DNA of 24,904 nucleotides from a virus: positions 1-24,904 of IMG/VR virus record IMGVR_UViG_3300032246_002481; one strand, written 5' to 3'. The translations under genes were made by a program, and so were the position numbers. This document shows positions 1,312-24,904 of this stretch, in pieces. The stretch's first letter is position 1; each line of letters starts with the position of its first letter. Below the pieces are notes generated by a model. The model searched no databases. It was not told where the DNA came from and worked only from the letters and a program-made list of their open reading frames with translations.

Positions 1312-1572
1312 CTATGCTCCTGCTATTGCTTTAGCTTCATCTTCAGTTAAACCTAAAGATTGAAGTTTTATTAATGCTGAATTTTTTGCTGCTTCTTTAT
1401 CTGCTAAATCTTGTGCTTCTTTATCTTCTATTGCTTTGATTGCATCTTTTAATTGTTTTGCAGTTGGAATTGGAAATTCTTCTCCTACCCATGTAATCAT
1501 GGATACGTCGTCATTAATCATACTAAATTCTGCATTAGGATATATATAACGAATTGCATTAAAATTTTTCAT
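1312..1572 (-). CDS. Small fibre-associated protein, possible fibre chaperone (86 aa)
   Basis: The start codon at 1572 overlaps the TGA stop of the 585-residue collagen-like fibre (ATGA), which points to translational coupling. The N-terminal half ([14 protein letters not shown], then EEFPIPT) recalls the small proteins encoded after fibre genes in many phages. The second half is a helical, Ala/Lys/Glu-rich segment ending in [20 protein letters not shown], a motif often seen at the C-terminus of small tail-associated proteins (XkdW-like in my recollection). The YPNAEF motif parallels FPNASFP in the 95-residue protein at 4477-4764. Size, coupling and position suggest a fibre-assembly accessory or a short virion component. 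I cannot tell which, and no catalytic signature is visible. Confidence 0.7.
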
Positions 1573-3326
1573 GCTAGTATCTCCATCGCTATAATTTGAA
1601 CTGATGCTCCTGATGGATTTGCTCCATAACTAGGAGCACTAAAAATATTATTTATTTGAAATTTATATGTTGTTGCACTTGTTGTTGCAGGTGAATCAAT
1701 ATATTGAGTTGAATATACATCATAATCAGCTGTATTTACTGAGCTACCATTTGGGAAATACCCTCCAGTAAATGCATTTGTAATAGCAGTTGCTCCTCTT
1801 AATAGTTGAACCCATCCAGTAAAATATGGTTGCGATCCACCACTTGATCCGAATGTTCCAAATGATGACATTATAAGAATTTTACTTGTTGCAAGAGTTG
1901 GAGTAATTGTTACGGATAAACCAGATACATCTACCCATCCCGCTCCGCCTGTTGCTGATGTTGTACTTGTTGTTACTGCACTAACAACTTGAGCTATTTT
2001 TCCTGCAGAGCCAGCTGGGCCAGTTGCACCCGCTGGGCCTGTTGCACCCGTTAAACCCTGAATTCCTTGTGCACCTTGTGGTCCTGTTGGACCCGCTGGG
2101 CCTGTTGCACCTGTTGCACCTGTTGCACCTGTATCACCCTTTAATCCTTGTGCACCTGTTGCACCTGTTGCACCTGTTGCGCCTGTTGCGCCTTGTATAC
2201 CTTGTGCACCTTGCGGTCCCTGTGGGCCTTGAGGTCCTACAATTTGTCCTGCTGAAGACCAAGAAGATCCATTCCAAATATATAAATCCCCATCAGCGTC
2301 TACAATTCTTGCATCATTTACAGTATTTCCTGTTGCTGGCAATGCTGCTACAGTTAAAGAAGAAGCTTTAAGATTTATTGAAACACCTTGTGGTCCCGCT
2401 GGTCCTTGTGGCCCCTCTGGTCCTTGTGCGCCTGCTGGACCAGATAAAGATGATCCAATTTCTACCCAGTAAGAATCGTAGTAAGTATACCCTTTGCCAT
2501 TTGTAGAATTAAACCATGCCTGTCCATCCACAGGACTAGTGGGTGGTGTTGCAGAAGTAATAGAAAAAGTTGCTTTAGATCCTGTAGCGCCTGTTGCTCC
2601 AGTTAAACCTTGTGGTCCTGTTGGACCCTGTGAGCCCGTTAAACCTGTTGGGCCTTGCGGTCCTACTGAACCTTGTGGGCCTGTTGGTCCTTGTGCGCCT
2701 GTGGCACCTGTATCGCCTTTTATGCCCTGTATTCCTTGTGGTCCTTGTGGGCCTTGTGCACCCGTTTGACCTTGTGGTCCTTGCAAAGCTCCAGCATCAA
2801 ACCAAGTATTATTTACTGTATTCCAAACCATTAGTGTGCCAGTAGATAAAATTAACCATGCATCTCCTGCGCTGCCTGTTAAATTAGCAGCAGTAAATGC
2901 AGTCATTGTTGCATAATTTCCACGAACAGTTAATGCTGTTCCTGTATCACCTTTAGCACCAGTTGCACCTGTATCGCCTTTAGGGCCAGTTGCACCTTGC
3001 GGTCCTGTGGCTCCTGTAGGGCCTGCTGGGCCAGTTGCACCTTGCGGTCCTGTGGCTCCTGTAGGGCCTGCTGGGCCTGCAACAGTGCTTGCAGCACCTG
3101 TGGCACCTTGTGGTCCTGTTGGACCTGCTGGACCTTGTACGCCTTGTACACCTTGTGCACCCGTATCACCTTTAGGGCCTTGCGGTCCTGTGGCTCCTGT
3201 TGGTCCTGGATTGTTTGTTAAATAATTATCTATATCTGTTGCTAAATAGCCAAGGTCTCTTGGGACATCGGGCGACATATCTAATGTCGGATATCTAAAT
3301 GTTTTAGGTGTTACATTTCCTGGCAT
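1569..3326 (-). CDS. Large collagen-like tail fibre protein (585 aa)
   Basis: Gly-X-Y collagen-like segments occupy about residues 41-129, 182-250, 295-314 and 364-441. They alternate with three short globular modules: one ending in [12 protein letters not shown] (131-181), one with [14 protein letters not shown] (251-294) and one with [14 protein letters not shown] (316-363). The C-terminal domain (442-585) contains [36 protein letters not shown] and ends in IIAMEILA. I recognise this as a common phage fibre tip domain of aquatic phages. The N-terminal 40 residues probably anchor the fibre to the particle. No Shine-Dalgarno sequence precedes the ATG at 3326; instead a TATAAT box lies 6 nt upstream, consistent with leaderless translation. 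A perfect 45-bp tandem repeat lies in the first collagen segment. Likely a trimeric host-recognition fibre. Confidence 0.88.
2217..2381 (-). repeat. 55-residue fibre module, copy in the 585-aa fibre
   Basis: This encodes residues 316-370 of the 585-residue fibre and is the partner of 961-1125. It differs from that copy at only 8 residues. Both copies are followed directly by GPQGPQG collagen triplets, so collagen DNA flanks the module in both genes. Confidence 0.9.
2983..3075 (-). repeat. Perfect 45-bp tandem repeat in collagen-coding DNA
   Basis: The bases from 2983 to 3030 recur exactly at 3028-3075, a period of 45 bp, or 15 residues and five Gly-X-Y triplets. The unit reads as [15 protein letters not shown] at the protein level. 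Identity at the third codon positions points to a recent in-frame duplication rather than selection on the protein alone. Confidence 0.9.
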
Positions 3327-9672: not shown

Positions 9673-10607
9673 TATCTATCTCCATAAAGTGTTGCACATC
9701 TGTTCCACAGTCTGTGGGATGAATATCCATTATATGCTGTATCATCTAAATCTGTATAGTTCATTGCTGTCATAGTCATTCTCATATCTGGTTGAATCCA
9801 TTTATCTGAGAATGTAGTATCCAAATCATATAGCTTATTTACTTCTAAAGCTTTTCCACCATATCCACCCTGCCACCAGTAATATGTTGATGTCTGACAA
9901 AAAAATGCTGTTGTATTTGCTGGGATTGTCATTGTTCCAGTCCAGGTATAATATGAGTTTCCACCAGAACGATTTGCCATTGTTGTCCATGTCATTCCAG
10001 TAGCCTGTGAGTATAGCCTGCCTGCTCCAGTTGGTATTCCATAATACATAGCAGAGCCTTCATAACCTTGATTCCAATAATTTGCATACCATCCAGATAA
10101 TGTAATTGTTTTGGATAGCGTTGGGTGAAAGTTTCTAATAAACATAGATCTCATTGAAAATCCCTGATATGCAGCATCTTCCATAATATTGTGAACTTGT
10201 CCTCCACCAACAACGTTTCCTCTTGCAAACTGTAGAACAGCTCCTGCACGATTATTTACAGATGAATATGAATTTGTATTTTGTCTATTGTGACGACCTA
10301 GCGCCATATGAAAATTTCTTTCATGATCTGTAGTAGAGTTCATATAATTATAATATGCTCCCCATCCATCGCCAGACTGCCATGCACCTGACCAGATTGG
10401 GTTTCTATCATTAATAGTATAAATTGTTGGAATATGATATGGGAATCTTGTTCCATCAGTTACTTCTCTAAATTCATTATCTATTCCAGTTTTAACTCCA
10501 AGAGATGTTGGTGTAATTCCAAGCGATGCGCCCGTTACTCCAATAGTGGCCAAGTCAGCACCCTTTAGCCCTGATGATAATGTTAAAAGTGAGTCTAATG
10601 ATGCCAT
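9672..10607 (-). CDS. Tyr/Trp-rich fibre protein (311 aa)
   Basis: The open frame could start at 10622, but the ATG at 10607 is preferred. It forms TAATG with the stop of the 883-residue gene, has GGAGA (10616-10620) at 8-nt spacing, and yields MASLDS, like the MA-starts of neighbours. The first 45 residues are Gly/Leu/Thr-rich (LSSGLKGADLATIGVTGASLG). The body contains IYTINDRNP, WGAYYNYMNS, FHMALGRHNRQN, and many Tyr/Trp/Gly clusters such as YYTWTGTM and STYYWWQGGYGG, then ends with SSHRLWNRCATLYGDR. The (I/F)-YT-x-N/D-R-x-(E/N/R)-P motif and aromatic richness recall the 516- and 503-residue paralogs, so it is probably a distant member of the same fibre group. The fold and receptor are unknown. 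Confidence 0.75.
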   Translation of the reverse strand: MASLDSLLTLSSGLKGADLATIGVTGASLGITPTSLGVKTGIDNEFREVTDGTRFPYHIPTIYTINDRNPIWSGAWQSGDGWGAYYNYMNSTTDHERNFHMALGRHNRQNTNSYSSVNNRAGAVLQFARGNVVGGGQVHNIMEDAAYQGFSMRSMFIRNFHPTLSKTITLSGWYANYWNQGYEGSAMYYGIPTGAGRLYSQATGMTWTTMANRSGGNSYYTWTGTMTIPANTTAFFCQTSTYYWWQGGYGGKALEVNKLYDLDTTFSDKWIQPDMRMTMTAMNYTDLDDTAYNGYSSHRLWNRCATLYGDR

Positions 10608-13258
10608 TATGCGATTCTCCATCCTTTTGCAGTATTTGAATATATTAATTTCATAGCTCTATTATTTACGTTAAAAATAAGGTCTTCTGCTACACCTTGA
10701 ATTAATTCACCGTTTCTAGCTACTGTAAAAAAGTTTGTTGCTGCTGTTCCAGAGATATCTATGATTTCTACAACAGCACCTAATCCTGGTCCTGCGGGAA
10801 GTGTTAAAGTTAATCCACCAACGCCACCACCATTTGCTGGAGTATTAACAAAAACTCTATCTCTATTAACTAAAAGCTTGCTAGCAGTTAAAACTTGCCA
10901 CGTATTATACCCAGCACTTGCTGCTAAAGCAGATGCTGTTGCAATATCTGATACCTGACTTGAAATTGATGACTCTATAGAAGTAACTCTAGGGTTTATA
11001 TTATCATATGAAGCTTGAAGAGTAGTATATTTACTTGATAGTGCTGAGACTGCTGTTCCATTTGCTGTTCCATTAACAAGGGTAATTGTAGCTGATCCTG
11101 CATTTTGAATATTTGTAATTGCATTTGCAGTCGCTGCAACAATATCGTCTATTCCTAATGCTTTAGATAAATTAGTTAATGCTTGTGATACATACAATAT
11201 TTGTTCTGCATTTAAAGTTGAAGATGTAAGAGCATTAATTTTTGTTTTAATTGTATCAATTTGATTTGATAATGTTGCATAGTTTGCTGCGCTGCCAAAA
11301 TCTGTAGTAATAATATTACTAGAGTTAGATTGCTCGCCTTCAGAAGCTGTTGTAATAGCTCTTACTTTAAAGGTATAGGCAGTAGCTGGAGTAAGTCCTG
11401 TTACAAGAATTGGTGATGTAGCACCTGCTCCCGTTCCGCCGATTGGAGTTGATACAACTGTATATCCAGTAATTGTTTGACCATTAGTTACAGTTGGTGC
11501 TGTAAATGAAAGTGTTGCGGTTGTTGCACCTGTTTTTGCAGCTACTCCAACTGTTGGTGGTCCAGGGGGAGCGGTATCTGTAGTTATGCTAGCGCTTGCT
11601 GCTGATTGCGCTCCAGTTCCAACCGAGTTTATTGCTGATACTTTAAATGTGTATGATGTTGCTGGAGTTAATCCAGTAAAAGTAATTGGTGATGTTGTTC
11701 CTGAAGCAATAACATTTCCTGGAGTTGATGTAGCAATATAACCAGTTATTGTTGCTCCTCCATTTGAAGCTGGAGCTGTAAATGCAAGAGTTGCAGTTGA
11801 TGAACCAGTTTTTGTTGCTGCTCCTACAGTTGGTGCTCCTGGCACAAAAACATCTGTAGCATCTGTTGTTATGCTATTACTTGCTGATGATTGTGCACTA
11901 TCGCCTACATAGTTTATGGCAGTTACTTTAAATGTATAAGCGGTTGCAGGTGTTAATCCTGTAATAGTAATAGGAGATGCTGATCCAGTTGCAACTATAT
12001 TACCTGGTGTTGATGCAATTCTGTAGCTAGAAATTGATGCTCCACCATTTGATGCTGGTGGTGTAAATGCAACTTGTGCTGATACTGATGATAACTTTGT
12101 AGCAGTGCCAATTGTTGGAGCGCCAGCCACTGTAGCATCTGAAACAATTTGATTACTTGCAGAAGAAGCAACAGATGTTCCAGCTGAGTTAGTTGCTGTA
12201 ACGGTAAATGTATAAGCGGTTGCTGCTGTTAATCCAGTAACTGTAATTGGGGAAGATGAACCAGTTGCGGTAACTCCTCCAGGTGAGGATGTGACTGTAT
12301 AGCTAGTTACTGCTGCTCCATTATTAATAGTCGGTGGAGTAAATGAAACACTTGCACTTGTTGCATTTATTTTTGTAGCTGTACCCACTAATGGTGCTGC
12401 TGGAGCTGCTGCATCTGTAGTTATTCTATTACTTGAAGATGAATTTAAACCGCTGCCTTGAGAGTTAGTTGCTGAAACTGTAAATGTATAATCTTGGCCA
12501 GGGGTGAGTCCTGTAACTGTAATAGTACCACTACCTGCTTGTGAAACAGATCCAGTAACTCCTCCTGGTGTTGATATTGCTGTATATGAAGTAATTGCAA
12601 ATCCACCATTTGAACCTGGAGCTGTATATGCAACTGTTGCTGTTGTTGATCCAGTTTTTGTAGCGGTTCCAATTGTTGGTGCTCCTGGAGCATTAGCATT
12701 TACAAAATCTGTAGTTGCTGTATTACTTGCTTGTGATGGAGCAGAAGTTCCTATAGAGTTAGTAGCAGTAACAGTAAATGTATAAGCTGTTCCTCCAGAT
12801 AATCCTGTAAAATTAATAGGGGATGATGTTCCTGTTGCAGTTATACTTCCAGGTAAAGATGTAGCTGTATAACCTGTAATTGCTTGTCCACCATCTGATG
12901 TTGGTGCAAAAAATGTAAGAGATGCTGTAGAGGTTCCAGTTTTTGTAGCGGTTCCAATTGTTGGTGCTCCTGGAACTGCAGAATCTGTTGTGATGCTGTT
13001 GCTTGCAGAAGATGGACCTGATGTTCCATCAGCATTAGTTGCTGTTACGGTAAATGTATAATTAGTATTAGGATTTAATCCTGTGACTGTAATGGGAGAT
13101 TGTGATGCTGTGCCAGTAATATTACCTGGAGTTGATGTGGCAGTATAACCAGTAATTGTGGAACCACCATTGTTAAGTGGTGCTGCAAACGCAACAGTTG
13201 CTGTTGTTGTTCCAGTTTTTGTAGCTTGCCCAATAATTGGAAGATCTGGTGCTGCCAT
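10607..13258 (-). CDS. Seven-FN3-domain tail protein with coiled-coil C-terminus (883 aa)
   Basis: The ATG at 13258 follows AAGGAGTATAAA. Seven fibronectin type III domains of 90-95 residues fill residues 1-654, starting near 1, 96, 191, 286, 379, 473 and 565. Each has PGAPT-x-G-x-A-T-K near the start, SPI-x-x-TGL-(T/S)-x-x-T-x-YTF-x-V in the middle and a TTD linker at the end. After them come a coiled-coil-like segment (about 658-730, QIDTIKTKIN..., ILYVSQALTNL) shared with the 110-residue protein at 8922-9254, and a C-terminal beta domain with LTLPAGPGLGAVVEIID, FFTVARNGELIQG and ending GWRIA, a common phage fibre tip. FN3 arrays are frequent spacers in phage tail proteins and may bind host surface polysaccharide weakly. 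It is long for an FN3 tail protein and likely sits at the end of a fibre or spike. Confidence 0.85.
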   Translation of the reverse strand: MAAPDLPIIGQATKTGTTTATVAFAAPLNNGGSTITGYTATSTPGNITGTASQSPITVTGLNPNTNYTFTVTATNADGTSGPSSASNSITTDSAVPGAPTIGTATKTGTSTASLTFFAPTSDGGQAITGYTATSLPGSITATGTSSPINFTGLSGGTAYTFTVTATNSIGTSAPSQASNTATTDFVNANAPGAPTIGTATKTGSTTATVAYTAPGSNGGFAITSYTAISTPGGVTGSVSQAGSGTITVTGLTPGQDYTFTVSATNSQGSGLNSSSSNRITTDAAAPAAPLVGTATKINATSASVSFTPPTINNGAAVTSYTVTSSPGGVTATGSSSPITVTGLTAATAYTFTVTATNSAGTSVASSASNQIVSDATVAGAPTIGTATKLSSVSAQVAFTPPASNGGASISSYRIASTPGNIVATGSASPITITGLTPATAYTFKVTAINYVGDSAQSSASNSITTDATDVFVPGAPTVGAATKTGSSTATLAFTAPASNGGATITGYIATSTPGNVIASGTTSPITFTGLTPATSYTFKVSAINSVGTGAQSAASASITTDTAPPGPPTVGVAAKTGATTATLSFTAPTVTNGQTITGYTVVSTPIGGTGAGATSPILVTGLTPATAYTFKVRAITTASEGEQSNSSNIITTDFGSAANYATLSNQIDTIKTKINALTSSTLNAEQILYVSQALTNLSKALGIDDIVAATANAITNIQNAGSATITLVNGTANGTAVSALSSKYTTLQASYDNINPRVTSIESSISSQVSDIATASALAASAGYNTWQVLTASKLLVNRDRVFVNTPANGGGVGGLTLTLPAGPGLGAVVEIIDISGTAATNFFTVARNGELIQGVAEDLIFNVNNRAMKLIYSNTAKGWRIA
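10616..10620 (-). promoter_or_regulatory. Ribosome binding site that decides the start at 10607
   Basis: GGAGA lies 8 nt before ATG 10607 and inside the last codons of the 883-residue gene. It is downstream of the alternative ATG at 10622, and so it supports the shorter product. Confidence 0.65.
12651..12689 (-). repeat. 39-bp exact repeat in FN3-coding DNA, copy 1
   Basis: This 39-bp stretch is identical to 12936-12974, exactly 285 bp (95 codons) away. It encodes the segment APTIGTATKTG at the start of an FN3 domain. Exact identity over all codon positions suggests recent domain duplication or gene conversion. Confidence 0.85.
12936..12974 (-). repeat. 39-bp exact repeat in FN3-coding DNA, copy 2
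   Basis: Second copy of the 39-bp identical segment, at the start of the adjacent FN3 domain. The remaining FN3 domains show diverged versions of the same segment. Confidence 0.85.
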
Positions 13259-20018: not shown

Positions 20019-20249
20019 TTACTCAGAAATTACTTCTATTGCATCCCATTTACCGATTGGACATGATGCATGTGGAAGCTTTGTTTTTGCTGCCATAAAG
20101 CATCCACACTTTTTACAAGTTTTAGTTGTTTGAATAAGCTCTGGGCAAGCTTTACAAATATCATATCTTTCAAGAGCAATCTCAATTGGGACTCTAGTTT
20201 TTGAAATAAATAAATCCCATGGTCTTGCTTTCTTTGGTTCATTAGTCAT
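20019..20249 (-). CDS. Small zinc-knuckle-like cysteine protein (76 aa)
   Basis: The ATG at 20249 forms TAATG with the stop of the upstream 222-residue gene and has AGGA 9 nt before it. Six cysteines lie at 32, 35, 45, 48, 50 and 63, in the order CxxC, nine residues, CxxCxC, twelve residues, C; a His at 60 is close by. The segment CKKCGCFMAAKTKLPHASCPIGKW is a motif I have seen repeatedly in small phage proteins, where it is annotated only as hypothetical. A zinc-binding or structural-metal role is likely from the cysteine spacing. It may belong to the virion assembly region, since it ends the block of DUF6065-like genes and precedes a fibre. The function is unknown. Confidence 0.75.
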   Translation of the reverse strand: MTNEPKKARPWDLFISKTRVPIEIALERYDICKACPELIQTTKTCKKCGCFMAAKTKLPHASCPIGKWDAIEVISE

Positions 20250-20917
20250 TAGCTATAATCCTTTCTATGCCAGAATTTTCTTTTGTATGTTGCTTCTGGT
20301 TGAATATTCCATCTCCAAAAATCTTTATAAAAATAAGACTCTTGATCATTTATTTTTAATTTCCAAGGTTCTCTTTTTATTGGAATTATTTGAACCAAAG
20401 GAGTTCCTGCTGGAATTAATCCGCTAAAACCTTTTTTCATAAAAAATGGGAAATTAATAACTACTGGGTGTGTGTCGGAATCTACAATTCCAGTCAAACT
20501 TTGAAAAGGAAGATCTGTTCTATTAAATGGATGTGTAATTAAAAGACTATATCCTTTTGGCGCTTTTAGGTGCCAAGTATTGATCCATTTAAATGGATGT
20601 GGGTTTAAGTTTTTATCTATAATCATTTCTTCTGTTTGAAAATCCATATGCTGACTAATTGGCTGATTATAAGTTGCGTTTTCTAAAAATCTTCCAGAAT
20701 GCTCGTCAAACATGAAATCAACATTGGTAACAATCATATAACCAGATGTAAATGCATCTAAAATTGGAACGCAACGCTTAATTGACATTTGTCCCTCTAC
20801 AATAGAAGGAATTGATTTAAACCAATCTGGTATCTCTGATTTTGCTGTTTTAGGTGGAGCAAAATCTACAAATTTATCATTCGTTTGTGCTTGTAGTATC
20901 TTCTTCTTGATTCTCAT
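20249..20917 (-). CDS. DUF6065-like phage protein, paralog 2 (222 aa)
   Basis: The ATG at 20917 has GGGGGAG about 10 nt before it and overlaps the 98-residue gene by 41 bp. The sequence has IPDWFKS near 29-35, a ladder KRCVPILDAFTSGYMI near 47-62, WINTWHLKAPKGYS near 111-124, HPFNRTDLPFQSLTGIVDSD near 129-148, and IPAGTPLVQIIPIKREPWK near 168-186. The C-terminus is basic and aromatic (YKRKFWHRKDY). These blocks line up with those of the 232-residue protein at 21176-21874, so the two are paralogs. I recall such proteins as DUF6065 in Pfam, found in phages and some bacteria, with no known function. The conserved core reads like an all-beta fold. It has no signal peptide or membrane segment. Confidence 0.78.
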   Translation of the reverse strand: MRIKKKILQAQTNDKFVDFAPPKTAKSEIPDWFKSIPSIVEGQMSIKRCVPILDAFTSGYMIVTNVDFMFDEHSGRFLENATYNQPISQHMDFQTEEMIIDKNLNPHPFKWINTWHLKAPKGYSLLITHPFNRTDLPFQSLTGIVDSDTHPVVINFPFFMKKGFSGLIPAGTPLVQIIPIKREPWKLKINDQESYFYKDFWRWNIQPEATYKRKFWHRKDYS

Positions 20918-21175: not shown

Positions 21176-21874
21176 TTAATATTCTTTCTTTTTCCAAAAC
21201 CTTTTTTTATAGGACCAAGGGTATGATCCATTTTCATCAGGAGTACGTAAATTTTTATTTTGTTCATCTAATATCTTATCATTAAAAGCATTGTCTGTCC
21301 ACATTTTCCATTTATTTCTTTTAAATGGAAATATTTGAACAAATGGGGTTCCTTCTGGAATGGTGCCATTAAAATCATCTTTAATAAAAAATGGAATATT
21401 TCCATTACCGTGGAATGCATCGCTATCAACAATTCCACTTAATGTTGTAAATGGTAAATCAAATCTATTAAATGGATGAGTTACAATTGTGCTATATCCC
21501 CTTGGTGTTTTCCATGACCATTTACATGACCATATAAATCCCATAGGTAAATGACCTGCTGGTCTAGGTATTGTTGCACCTAATTCTTTTGCACGTTCAC
21601 CAACAAAATCTTCCCAGCCTTCTGGACCCTGCCATTTAACTTGAGTATTTCCATCTTCATCTTTAAAAATATGTATATCAAATGGAGTTAATATTTCATA
21701 TCCGCTTGACATTATTTCCATAAATGGGATGCAAGATTTCATGCCATTACCTTGCTTAATGCCATCTATAATAACTTCAATTTCACCTTTTTTCCACCAT
21801 TGTGGAATCATGGATCTAACTGGTTTAATCAATGGGAAATACTCAACCCATGGGATAAACTTTATTAATTTCAT
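21176..21874 (-). CDS. DUF6065-like phage protein, paralog 1 (232 aa)
   Basis: The start at 21874 follows the TAA of the 70-residue gene directly (TAAATG). Key blocks: IPQWWKKGE near 23-31, SCIPFMEIMSSGYEILTPFD near 47-66, WSCKWSWKTPRGYST near 115-129, HPFNRFDLPFTTLSGIVDSD near 133-152, NIPFFIKDDFNG near 159-170 and TIPEGTPFVQIFPFKRNKWK near 171-190. These correspond to those of the 222-residue paralog. Compared with it, this copy has an extra segment at about 68-110 (KDEDGNTQVKW, GWEDFVGERAKELGA). I recognise DUF6065, whose function is not known. Placement next to fibre genes might mean a virion or host-interaction role, but this is only context. An A-rich run near the 3' end (AAAAAAAGG) is noted but not read as frameshifting. 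Confidence 0.78.
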   Translation of the reverse strand: MKLIKFIPWVEYFPLIKPVRSMIPQWWKKGEIEVIIDGIKQGNGMKSCIPFMEIMSSGYEILTPFDIHIFKDEDGNTQVKWQGPEGWEDFVGERAKELGATIPRPAGHLPMGFIWSCKWSWKTPRGYSTIVTHPFNRFDLPFTTLSGIVDSDAFHGNGNIPFFIKDDFNGTIPEGTPFVQIFPFKRNKWKMWTDNAFNDKILDEQNKNLRTPDENGSYPWSYKKRFWKKKEY

Positions 21875-22099: not shown

Positions 22100-23494
22100 C
22101 TAAGATATTGATACTTTTTGTGCTGATATGTCTTCGTTATAACTGCTTGGATTAGCAATTATACCGTAATTGGTGTTAATCTTCAATCCTGTAGCTTGAT
22201 GTATAAAATCAGTACCTATTTGATTTGTAAATAAGGTATCTGAATATGCTTTTACTGTTACTGTGGCTGTACTGCCGCCTTTTACTGCGTTTGTAACAAT
22301 AACCCTTAAAGATCTAATTATCGGAAAAGATGTTAATGAGTCTAGGGTTTGAAAAGTTACTTCGCTCAATACATTTGATACATATTTAAAAATTTTAACT
22401 TTTCTTGGATAAGTATCTTGATAATGTGTGCAATTACCTCCAGTTGCAACGCAGTTTTGTCCTGCACCACATGGATTATAATTGTCTCCACTGCCAGATA
22501 CTAGCTGCACATCTGATGAATTTCTACCACAGCATGAACAAGAGTTGGTTGTGAATCCTGCTGCTTGCCCTGGATCATAGCCACACGCTCCACAATAATA
22601 ATATCCTGGTGATCCATTTAAACAATTATTTGGATTTCCAGTATTTGTATATGAATAACAATATGTACCTGCTACACAACATGGAGTATTTGGTTCTTGA
22701 GTTGTCCAGTAAATATATCCTCCAACGCATGGATTTAAATAAGCACAAGAGTTATATGCATTATAAGCTTTACAACAAGAAACATAGTAGCTTCCATAAA
22801 CTAAACAGTTTCCAAATGTTTTACAATTTCCTCCAGTTGCTACACAATTTCCACCTGTTTTGCAATTATCATAATATTGATGAGCTAAAGTATAGTATCC
22901 ACAAACTGCTCCACTGTATGAAATATTAGCACAGCTATCTGCATTACAAACATTAACAGTATTTCCAGCATTTGTTCCAGCTACACAATTGTTTGCATAT
23001 TGACAGTTGCAAACATAATTATTATAGGTTGCAGGTATGGCTGGATTAGAAGTGGTTACAGAATTAATACAATTATATCCATAGTCAACATTATATGCAT
23101 AATTATAAGGACCACCTGTTGCAATGCATCCATTTCTAGCACCACAGTTATCAATTGCAGAATATGTATCACAATTTCCTGTACCTGATGAAATTTCTTG
23201 AGATGTTACTACAGCAAACCAATTCCCAGCATCGGTTACCCAAAGAGCTGCGCCTGTACCAATTCCTGGACTTGTAATATCTATTGTAACATTTGGTTTT
23301 GACATTGTTGTAGACAATAAAGGGTATTGTGTTGGGTTTGAAGCTGATACTCTATTGCTACCAGCAGTCCATCCAGATCTTATTACTTTCCACCCATTTC
23401 TTAAACTGTTTTGAAATAATTCTTGAAAAGATAAAAATCCTTTTAATCTTGATGAAGATACAACTGCTCTTCTTGATGTTATTCTAGATGCCAT
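22100..23494 (-). CDS. Tail fibre-like protein with a 30-cysteine central domain (464 aa)
   Basis: The ATG at 23494 overlaps the stop of the preceding fibre (TAATG). Residues 1-105 look like a phage structural N-terminus (SRRAVVSSSRLKGFLSFQELFQNSLRNGW region, then a beta-rich ALWVTDAGNWFAVVTS). Residues 108-355 hold 30 cysteines, many Asn, Gly and Tyr, with short motifs such as NCVATGGNC (twice exactly) and a third GCIATGG, plus CC pairs and C-x-C. Residues 363-464 return to a Cys-free beta sandwich (KVKIFKYVSN, FPIIRSLRVIVTNA, VKAYSDT, ISS-type end). The Cys-rich part looks inserted between two halves of a jelly-roll-like domain. I have a general impression that other aquatic phages carry similar fibres. 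Disulfides or metal binding are both possible; the function is unknown. Confidence 0.78.
   Translation of the reverse strand: MASRITSRRAVVSSSRLKGFLSFQELFQNSLRNGWKVIRSGWTAGSNRVSASNPTQYPLLSTTMSKPNVTIDITSPGIGTGAALWVTDAGNWFAVVTSQEISSGTGNCDTYSAIDNCGARNGCIATGGPYNYAYNVDYGYNCINSVTTSNPAIPATYNNYVCNCQYANNCVAGTNAGNTVNVCNADSCANISYSGAVCGYYTLAHQYYDNCKTGGNCVATGGNCKTFGNCLVYGSYYVSCCKAYNAYNSCAYLNPCVGGYIYWTTQEPNTPCCVAGTYCYSYTNTGNPNNCLNGSPGYYYCGACGYDPGQAAGFTTNSCSCCGRNSSDVQLVSGSGDNYNPCGAGQNCVATGGNCTHYQDTYPRKVKIFKYVSNVLSEVTFQTLDSLTSFPIIRSLRVIVTNAVKGGSTATVTVKAYSDTLFTNQIGTDFIHQATGLKINTNYGIIANPSSYNEDISAQKVSIS
22430..23173 (-). repeat. Cys/Asn/Gly/Tyr-rich low-complexity protein segment (30 Cys in 248 residues)
   Basis: This is the part of the 464-residue protein from residue 108 to 355. 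It is built of short irregular units, each with an N-C, and includes three ATGG motifs (GCIATGG near 122, NCVATGGNC near 216 and 347). The rest of that protein has no cysteine. Most other proteins in the window have few or none. Confidence 0.85.
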
Positions 23495-24904
23495 TATGCG
23501 TCAATATCTCCTGTTAAAATCCAAGAGTTACTTGCTCGTTTTTCTAAAAATGCCGATGAATATTGTGTTCTTGTTTTTAAATACCCATCTGTTGAAACTA
23601 TTGTAGCAGGGGAAGTAACAGAAAATATAAGTCTTCCAGCACCCATTTGTCTTAACTCTAAACTTGACCCAATTGGCCAAGTAGTATTTGATGCATCATT
23701 AGGTATTGTAATTGTTACATCTGTTCCTGAAGTAAACTCTGTCATTCGTCCAGAATTAGCGGATGAAATAGTGTATGAAGTTGCAGCAGATGAAGTTGCA
23801 TACTCTACAACATCAACAGCATAAGAGTTTATTGATCCTCGCATTGAAGAATGATATTGACAGACATAATATAAGTTATCTGGTGCTGATTGAGAAAGCT
23901 CTACTAAAATAGATCCATTATCTGTTCCCGCATTTGTTATACCTGTAGAATAAAGACTGCCTGCAGAATATGCACCATTTACTGTTTGTATCCAGAATGG
24001 GTGACCTGAAGCGTTTACAATAATTCTGTACTTTTTGCCTTTTTTAAAGTTAATTGTTCCATTTAAAACTCCATTTACAAGATATCCGCTCATCCCAGAA
24101 TTAGTTATGTAATATTCTATTGCTGGCTCAGATATAGAAAGTTTAGTATCTACTGCTGCTTGTGTTGCAAAATCAGCATCTGTTAAAGAGGCATTAAATT
24201 GTGCTAATGTTCCAGTTAATGTATTGCCGCCTATCTCAATCAATACTCTTGTTCCGCCACCAATGATTGCTATTCCAGAAGTATAACCCAGTCCAGAGTT
24301 TGCAACAGTAATAGCTCCAAGTGAGGATATATTTATCTTTCCGCCTTTATCTAGCCCATCTTGCAATATAGCAATATTATTTTGTCCAAAAAATCCTTCA
24401 ATATTGTCATATCCAGAAACAGAAGTAATTCCATTTGATATTGATATGTTTTTATTTTTAAGTGTATCTTGACTTGTTGCAGTTATTTTAGTGCCTAAAG
24501 CTGTTGTAATAGTTGCAGCATAAGATGAATCATCATTTATTGCAGCTGCTAATTCATTTAAAGTGTCTAGTGCTGTTGGTGCTCCATCAATTAAATTCCC
24601 TAATTCTGATAAAGGAATTTTTCCGTTTGAATCTAAAGAGGCAACTCCATCTGCGTTTCCAATAGCGCTTAGTGGAACATAGGTTGTTGCGGATGTGCTT
24701 CCCAAGCCAGATACGGCGGTATCTACGTAAGTTTTATTAGCAATAGTACTATCTACAGAAATAGTAATTGTATTTGCTACATCATTATAAGATTTAGATA
24801 TTCCAGTTCCAGCCGTAAGAGCTGATTCAACTGCATCTTGAGCAAGTTCTGTAAATTCAGAAGGAAGTGTATTTAAATATGGAAGATCTGACCAAGGAGT
24901 TGAA
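23494..24904 (-). CDS. Modular tail fibre with cupredoxin-like domain, C-terminal part (5' end off window)
   Basis: The frame is open from the window edge (first full codon at 24903-24901) to the TAA at 23494, about 470 residues. The visible order is: a repeat of the ALTAGTGI-x-K-x-YND-x-ANTIT type near the edge, YVDTAVSGLG, ADGVASLDSNG, a fibre stalk, then a domain at 23806-24114 that reads as a cupredoxin: NGVLNGTINF, GHPFWIQT, LYYVCQYHSSMRG. The four classical type 1 copper ligands are all present (His at 24001-24003, Cys at 23860-23862, His at 23851-23853, Met at 23842-23844). A fibre tip domain follows (TIPNDASNTTWPIGSSLEL, ending GDIDA). The N-terminal repeat also occurs in the 822-residue fibre. 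Such domains are known in phage fibres; copper binding is not shown here. It is likely a host-contact fibre. Confidence 0.85.
   Translation of the reverse strand, partial: STPWSDLPYLNTLPSEFTELAQDAVESALTAGTGISKSYNDVANTITISVDSTIANKTYVDTAVSGLGSTSATTYVPLSAIGNADGVASLDSNGKIPLSELGNLIDGAPTALDTLNELAAAINDDSSYAATITTALGTKITATSQDTLKNKNISISNGITSVSGYDNIEGFFGQNNIAILQDGLDKGGKINISSLGAITVANSGLGYTSGIAIIGGGTRVLIEIGGNTLTGTLAQFNASLTDADFATQAAVDTKLSISEPAIEYYITNSGMSGYLVNGVLNGTINFKKGKKYRIIVNASGHPFWIQTVNGAYSAGSLYSTGITNAGTDNGSILVELSQSAPDNLYYVCQYHSSMRGSINSYAVDVVEYATSSAATSYTISSANSGRMTEFTSGTDVTITIPNDASNTTWPIGSSLELRQMGAGRLIFSVTSPATIVSTDGYLKTRTQYSSAFLEKRASNSWILTGDIDA

Follow-up and report, generated by a model that had tools for sequence, protein, structure and literature searches.

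Within the viral DNA stretch IMGVR_UViG_3300032246_002481 (positions 1 to 24,904 of that IMG/VR record; this whole stretch of 24,904 nucleotides is hereafter termed the window), the minus-strand open reading frame (ORF) 22100–23494 begins with ATG and encodes a 464-residue protein, all 30 cysteines of which lie in residues 108–355. This segment is probably a long antiparallel hairpin inserted in a loop of a lectin-like β-sandwich, with two arms that would be joined by nested disulfides. The family to which the protein belongs shows even cysteine totals, a fixed difference in cysteine number between the arms, matched spacings, paired gain and loss of cysteines, and a shaft that varies although the base and the tip are conserved.

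In the arrangement we propose, the arms would zip via nested disulfides, the first Cys pairing with the last and the second with the second-last, while occasional CxxC motifs would pair with themselves. The pairs predicted for the window protein are 108–355, 117–348, 123–342, 142–322, 162–321, 164–319, 170–291, 183–279, 188–273, 198–272, 211–256, 217–250, 224–241, and 230–240, plus 301–304, i.e., 14 rungs and one CxxC; up to 20 rungs are predicted in the family member L039. These pairs would be disulfides formed within one chain, either following lysis or once the particle has been assembled, a timing suggested because no dedicated oxidase was found in a weak search; oxidation would probably occur after lysis or through host enzymes. 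On a tail appendage, the ladder would constitute a stalk that is stiff, resists proteases, and can be adjusted in length, and it may present the conserved tip to the host or to a virion partner. The combination of a conserved tip with a shaft of variable length points to a stalk that offers an unchanging contact site. Whether the family represents a new class of repeat protein is an evenly balanced question. In such a class, every repeat unit would be shared by two distant arms, with 7 residues on one and 9 on the other, and closed by a disulfide rung; the covalently laddered stalk, of up to 20 rungs, could then change in length only if both arrays changed as a pair. To our knowledge, no cystine ladder approaches this number of rungs.

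Layout and conservation of the insert

Cysteine accounts for 30 of the 248 residues (12.1%) encoded at 22430–23173 of the minus strand, including the first and the last residue of the segment, and is absent from the flanks. This count agrees with the earlier note on this DNA, which had reported 30 Cys at about 12% and few Cys in other proteins of the window; the remaining ORFs contain 0–2.9% Cys, the one exception being a 76-residue protein with six Cys (20019–20249). The NCVATGGNC sequence said to occur twice was located at residues 216–224 and 347–355, and its third, partial copy is the CIATGG of residues 123–128.

Searches of IMG/VR identified 12 other distinct members, so that the family comprises 13 sequences. 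Close relatives of the window protein are L002, L004, and L005, and more distant members are L018, L031–L033, L035, L038, L039, L052, and L054. Because these 12 members, which come from several metagenomes, share the layout, the Cys-rich segment is neither a product of chance nor an assembly artefact. Both flanks align well across the family, and the inserts span 154–305 residues with 20–42 Cys. When the Cys codons of the window gene are aligned to those of L002, L004, and L005, synonymous differences are present at 8–10 of 24–28 sites, with Cys retained. Other candidates from DNA-pattern scans (L024, L037, and L057–L070) proved upon reading to be chance frames and were dropped. The features of the gene are as follows.

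22100..23494, minus strand: whole gene, 464 residues; homologous ORFs in the 12 other members
23174..23494, minus strand: N-terminal flank, residues 1–107, predicted start of the β-sandwich (strands in the AlphaFold (AF2) model); 79–93% identity to L002/L004/L005
23126..23173, minus strand: base of the putative ladder, outgoing arm (C108, C117, C123; predicted partners in the nested register C355, C348, C342); Cys kept in 13/13
22883..23110, minus strand: variable shaft, outgoing arm A (C142, C162, C164, C170, C183, C188, C198); 36–48% identity to relatives, versus 91–98% in the tip
22697..22882, minus strand: conserved tip (C211, C217, C224, C230 / C240, C241, C250, C256), with the turn LVYGSYYVS between C230 and C240; 91–98% identity to the three close relatives
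22481..22696, minus strand: variable shaft, returning arm B (C272, C273, C279, C291, C319, C321, C322, and C301/C304)
22583..22594, minus strand: CGAC (C301–C304), a CxxC whose two Cys are predicted to bond to each other and to take no part in the ladder; excluding it restores the two-Cys difference between the arms
22430..22480, minus strand: base of the putative ladder, returning arm (C342, C348, C355); Cys kept in 13/13
22103..22429, minus strand: C-terminal flank, residues 356–464, predicted rest of the β-sandwich (AF2 strands); 81–84% identity to L002/L004/L005

The AlphaFold model of the flanks, which is weak, places strands at residues 69–74, 81–86, and 92–99 before the insert and at residues 364–372, 375–383, 395–402, 410–417, and 425–434 after it. 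The flanks would thus be two parts of one β-sandwich, in line with the earlier suggestion of an insertion between its halves. Fold matches of the flanks in the PDB (galectins, PL14 (alginate) lyases, and VP8*) are not significant (E ≥ 0.098), and Pfam gave no hit to the flanks for a ConA/galectin-like sandwich. Foldseek against BFVD matched A0A6J7WYT9, A0A6J7WRS3, and A0A6J5RDN1 almost from end to end (E 1.8e-13 to 2.5e-8; 17–22% identity); these uncharacterised proteins of uncultured Caudovirales phage are probable homologues.

Within the window group, identity is 68–95% in the base zone of the insert and 88–98% in the tip (C211–C256), the latter mostly above that of the flanks (77–93%), versus 34–55% in the two shaft arms, with the exception of L004 versus L005 (80 and 84%). 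Both shaft arms diverge together while the base and the tip stay conserved. Individual Cys positions of the shaft are not conserved across members. Conservation position by position, proposed earlier as a check, is therefore poor in the shaft and holds in the base; for a ladder it is the wrong test, as the conserved thing is the pairing pattern, which is kept. The relatives carry tandem units, namely 7-mers (GGNCxxT) and 9-mers (NPYNPCxxx), and in L004 and L005 9-mers and 11-mers of the NNCLNGTPSYW type. Judging from these evident tandem repeats, the insert grew through small tandem duplications, as had been supposed.

It should be noted that the flanks group the window protein with L005 and L004 (89% identity to L005), whereas the regular repeats of L005 are missing from its shaft, whose irregular Cys layout, including the CxxC, is common to L002. 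The shaft may be a cassette exchanged between phages.

The whole window protein and either flank had no tblastn match in INPHARED, where L018 gave only collagen-like and other low-identity composition matches and L035 a single weak one. No relative was present in 84,980 prokaryote genomes; the window protein had no sequence relative in the PDB and no Pfam match. PHROG yielded no match at E ≤ 1 for the window protein, L018, or L004, and a weak one only for L005 (E 0.057). The regions examined in the cultured phages S-PM2, S-H9-1, Gilson, and DSL-LC01 contain no protein of this kind. The insert itself matches no protein family or structure library searched, none of which assigns it to a known Cys-rich family, a possibility that the earlier note had raised.

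Cysteine counts and spacings on the two arms

The Cys totals of the 13 members are 30, 28, 30, 28, 38, 32, 30, 32, 20, 32, 42, 20, and 20. All of them are even (13/13), and no Cys lies outside the insert. For counting by arm, the arms were split at the tip CC and the CxxC pairs were set aside beforehand. Arm A then exceeds arm B by exactly two in each of the 12 members with a tip CC, at counts ranging from 9/7 to 21/19. Nested pairing would yield this constant difference if the tip loop is closed by the first cysteine of the CC, with the second serving as the next rung.

Spacings along the arms point in the same direction. With Cys k paired with Cys N+1−k (first with last), long gaps lie opposite long gaps and 7-residue steps opposite 9-residue steps. 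Thus, L018 has steps of 12 and 10 opposite 14 and 12 at the same rungs, L031 has a step of 14 opposite 15, and the L004 series of 19, five 9s, 12, and 13 lies opposite 21, five 11s, 12, and 15, with all three long steps coinciding. The CNC of the window protein (162, 164) is opposite its CSC (319, 321). A rung of L018, L031, L032, and L039 nearly always takes up 16 residues (7+9, or 9+7 near the base), and the 9-to-7 switch occurs at the matching rung on both arms. The mean correlation of arm spacings is r = 0.53 in the nested register versus at most 0.13 in twelve shifted registers (permutation p = 0.0004; 0.001 without the CxxC rule).

Three close comparisons each show a difference of one Cys per arm; the raw counts are 15/15 in the window protein versus 14/14 in L002, 16/14 in L004 versus 15/13 in L005, and 17/15 in L031 versus 16/14 in L032. 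C183 of arm A and C279 of arm B, both missing from L002, are partners in the nested map. Which exact repeat was gained or lost is ambiguous for L004/L005 and L031/L032; the arms agree. The AF2 model of the L039 tip, although of very low confidence, is also in keeping with the ladder, as it has one hairpin (strands 44–52 and 58–70).

Several points weigh against the nested ladder. The register and the CxxC rule were derived from the same sequences that test them, and scans for held-out members yielded none. The 13 sequences are mutually related and do not amount to 13 independent tests; they represent few independent changes, since the flank tree resolves them into three clades. Some rungs of the window protein are unmatched (steps of 20 versus 1 and 6 versus 28), and r is no more than 0.24 for this protein taken by itself. 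In L039 the arm spacings are anti-correlated (r = −0.52), opposite to the other members, as expected from its 9/7 swap. In the AlphaFold model of the whole protein the insert is not resolved (predicted local distance difference test (pLDDT) about 24), and the model of the L039 tip is of very low confidence (pLDDT 30). The putative placement of the protein in the virion comes from gene context. The cytoplasm in which phage proteins are synthesised is reducing, and a phage-borne sulfhydryl oxidase (PF04777) was not found, in a search whose control was silent too. A 108-kb contig of the family encodes thioredoxin and, in the same place, a glutaredoxin-like match below the cut-off; neither is evidence of an oxidising system.

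Alternative explanations and known analogues

The same ladder could have its rungs between chains, so that arm A of each subunit bonds to arm B of its neighbour and a trimeric or fibrous appendage becomes a covalently closed fibre. Trimers are common among tail appendages, and inter-chain pairing would likewise produce arms of matching length; in our opinion, this arrangement is nevertheless unlikely, as C108 and C355 bracket the insertion in what is modeled as a single β-sandwich, which favours pairing within a chain, and pairing between chains would not require an even Cys total per chain.

The earlier note left a choice between a disulfide-rich and a metal-rich domain. Disulfides are favoured over metal, because five of the 13 even totals (30, 30, 38, 30, and 42) cannot be divided by four and the insert has 0–1 His; the segment does not resemble a compact Cys-rich domain and looks instead like a two-arm antiparallel ladder with nested pairing. 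That the Cys bind Zn, Cu, or Fe-S in a virion metallothionein-like or zinc-ladder domain is accordingly quite improbable, for all that Cys makes up 12% of the insert, that the window protein has one CxxC motif, and that the upstream gene has a GHPFW...CQYHSSM stretch which by eye resembles a copper-binding cupredoxin motif (Pfam gave no match). Steps are mostly of 6–9 residues and not in CxC/CxxC runs, and no metal-binding Pfam family passed its cut-off.

Another disulfide topology, in which neighbours pair within each array as beads or a β-solenoid and the arms match in length for another reason, is very improbable. Such pairing predicts changes of two Cys within one array and no rung-by-rung match of spacings, whereas the three close comparisons show one change per arm and the spacings do match; short-repeat solenoids that carry one or two Cys in every repeat do exist, as in insect antifreeze proteins. 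We find it hardly credible that the inserts are low-complexity Cys/Asn/Gly/Tyr repeats grown by slippage under little constraint, with even totals and matched arms owed to chance and shared ancestry: the shaft does turn over fast and differs by whole repeats, but the totals are even in 13/13, the arm difference is constant in 12/12, close relatives differ on both arms, the register is specific, and conservation of the tip mostly exceeds that of the flanks.

Returning to the nested ladder, its closest topological parallels are small. The known cystine ladders, those of θ-defensins and algal HAP2, have three disulfides. The cystine-ladder-like (CLL) motif of green-algal HAP2 is a 37-residue element with three parallel disulfides, paired 1–2, 3–6, and 4–5 (PMC6327110), i.e., one self-pair plus nested pairs, which is the topology proposed here for the insert. 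The scale differs, as the phage inserts comprise 154–305 residues with 10–21 proposed disulfides; moreover, HAP2 is a eukaryotic secreted protein, no sequence relation to the insert was found, and the passages on the motif mention no tandem repeats. θ-Defensins, 18-residue cyclic peptides with a cystine ladder (PMC6327110), likewise have parallel disulfides across a short peptide. Unlike the insert, as far as that source describes them, they are cyclic, not inserted in another domain, not from phage, and not built from repeats. PDB-sequence and Pfam searches gave no match to HAP2 or θ-defensins, so the insert would be similar in topology only and is not a family member. Among stalks that interrupt a β-sandwich, the bovine ultralong CDR H3, which consists of a stalk and a knob (PMC5994613, PMC8602281), comes nearest. 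Like the insert as proposed here, it is a very long β-sandwich insertion with a disulfide-stabilised tip on a stalk; it differs in having a β-ribbon stalk with disulfides in the knob, whereas in the phage protein Cys are in the shaft and the tip is the conserved part. The titles and abstracts retrieved on "disulfide ladder" or on phage Cys-rich disulfide proteins contained no phage precedent.

Gene context, host, and significance

Gene order is conserved in the family: a tail-fibre-like gene is followed by the Cys gene, a small gene, and then phrog_7084-like genes. The neighbours in the window are as follows.

23494..24705, minus strand: upstream overlapping tail-fibre-like gene with PHROG tail/minor-tail matches; neighbour kept in L004, L005, L018, and L033
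20249..21874, minus strand: downstream phrog_7084 pair (20249–20917 and 21176–21874); similar genes, by eye, after the corresponding gene in L018, L033, and L054

The same block contains a virion structural gene (phrog_5838), an FN3-repeat protein (10607–13258, minus strand, seven stretches), and a collagen-repeat tail protein (1569–3326, minus strand, six stretches). The Cys-rich protein is a probable component of a virion appendage, and a tail appendage is the likeliest place because its neighbours are tail-fibre-like, collagen-like, and FN3 proteins.

The upstream gene (23494–24705) carries GHPFWIQT...YYVCQYHSSMRG, which resembles the His...Cys-x2-His-x3-Met site of type-1 copper proteins (cupredoxins). 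The stretch is present in the L004 and L018 homologues and absent from that of L005, Pfam finds no match, and a DSL-LC01 protein (L078, 18852–20222) has a similar stretch. That a copper site next to a Cys-rich protein aids thiol oxidation is speculation. Farther downstream, one phrog_7084 copy is near DUF6065, and 21176–21874 matches halophilic archaeal viruses and a few cyanophages in INPHARED (best about 33% identity). The 76-residue protein with six Cys (20019–20249, minus strand) is near DUF6171 (E 1.9e-5, just under the cut-off) and is likely a zinc ribbon.

Related terminases, nearest to those of Streptomyces phages, are encoded on two large family contigs of 108 and 82 kb. The one on the 108-kb contig, which also has portal and head-protease genes, shares about 60% identity with its counterparts in Streptomyces phages, for example Gilson (Stanwilliamsviridae). 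Because of this terminase, and because neither psbA nor psbD was present on the 12 contigs searched, the family probably belongs to large phages of an actinobacterial host; a freshwater source appears likely. A cyanobacterial host, raised by a structural gene of the window that resembles cyanophage genes, was rejected on the same grounds. The T4-type capsid protein gp23 was looked for without success, in a search whose control was likewise silent.

The ladder reading has the merit of yielding a definite disulfide map. If it is true, two arrays of different sequence in a tandem-repeat architecture must match in copy number, so that repeat numbers would directly be seen to coevolve within a single protein, and the question arises of how a phage introduces 10–20 ordered disulfides into a protein synthesised in the cytoplasm. 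The relatives, which lengthen and shorten both arms in step, would then represent a kind of extendable protein stalk, and the family might offer protein engineering a disulfide scaffold that is very long and stiff and can be extended genetically.
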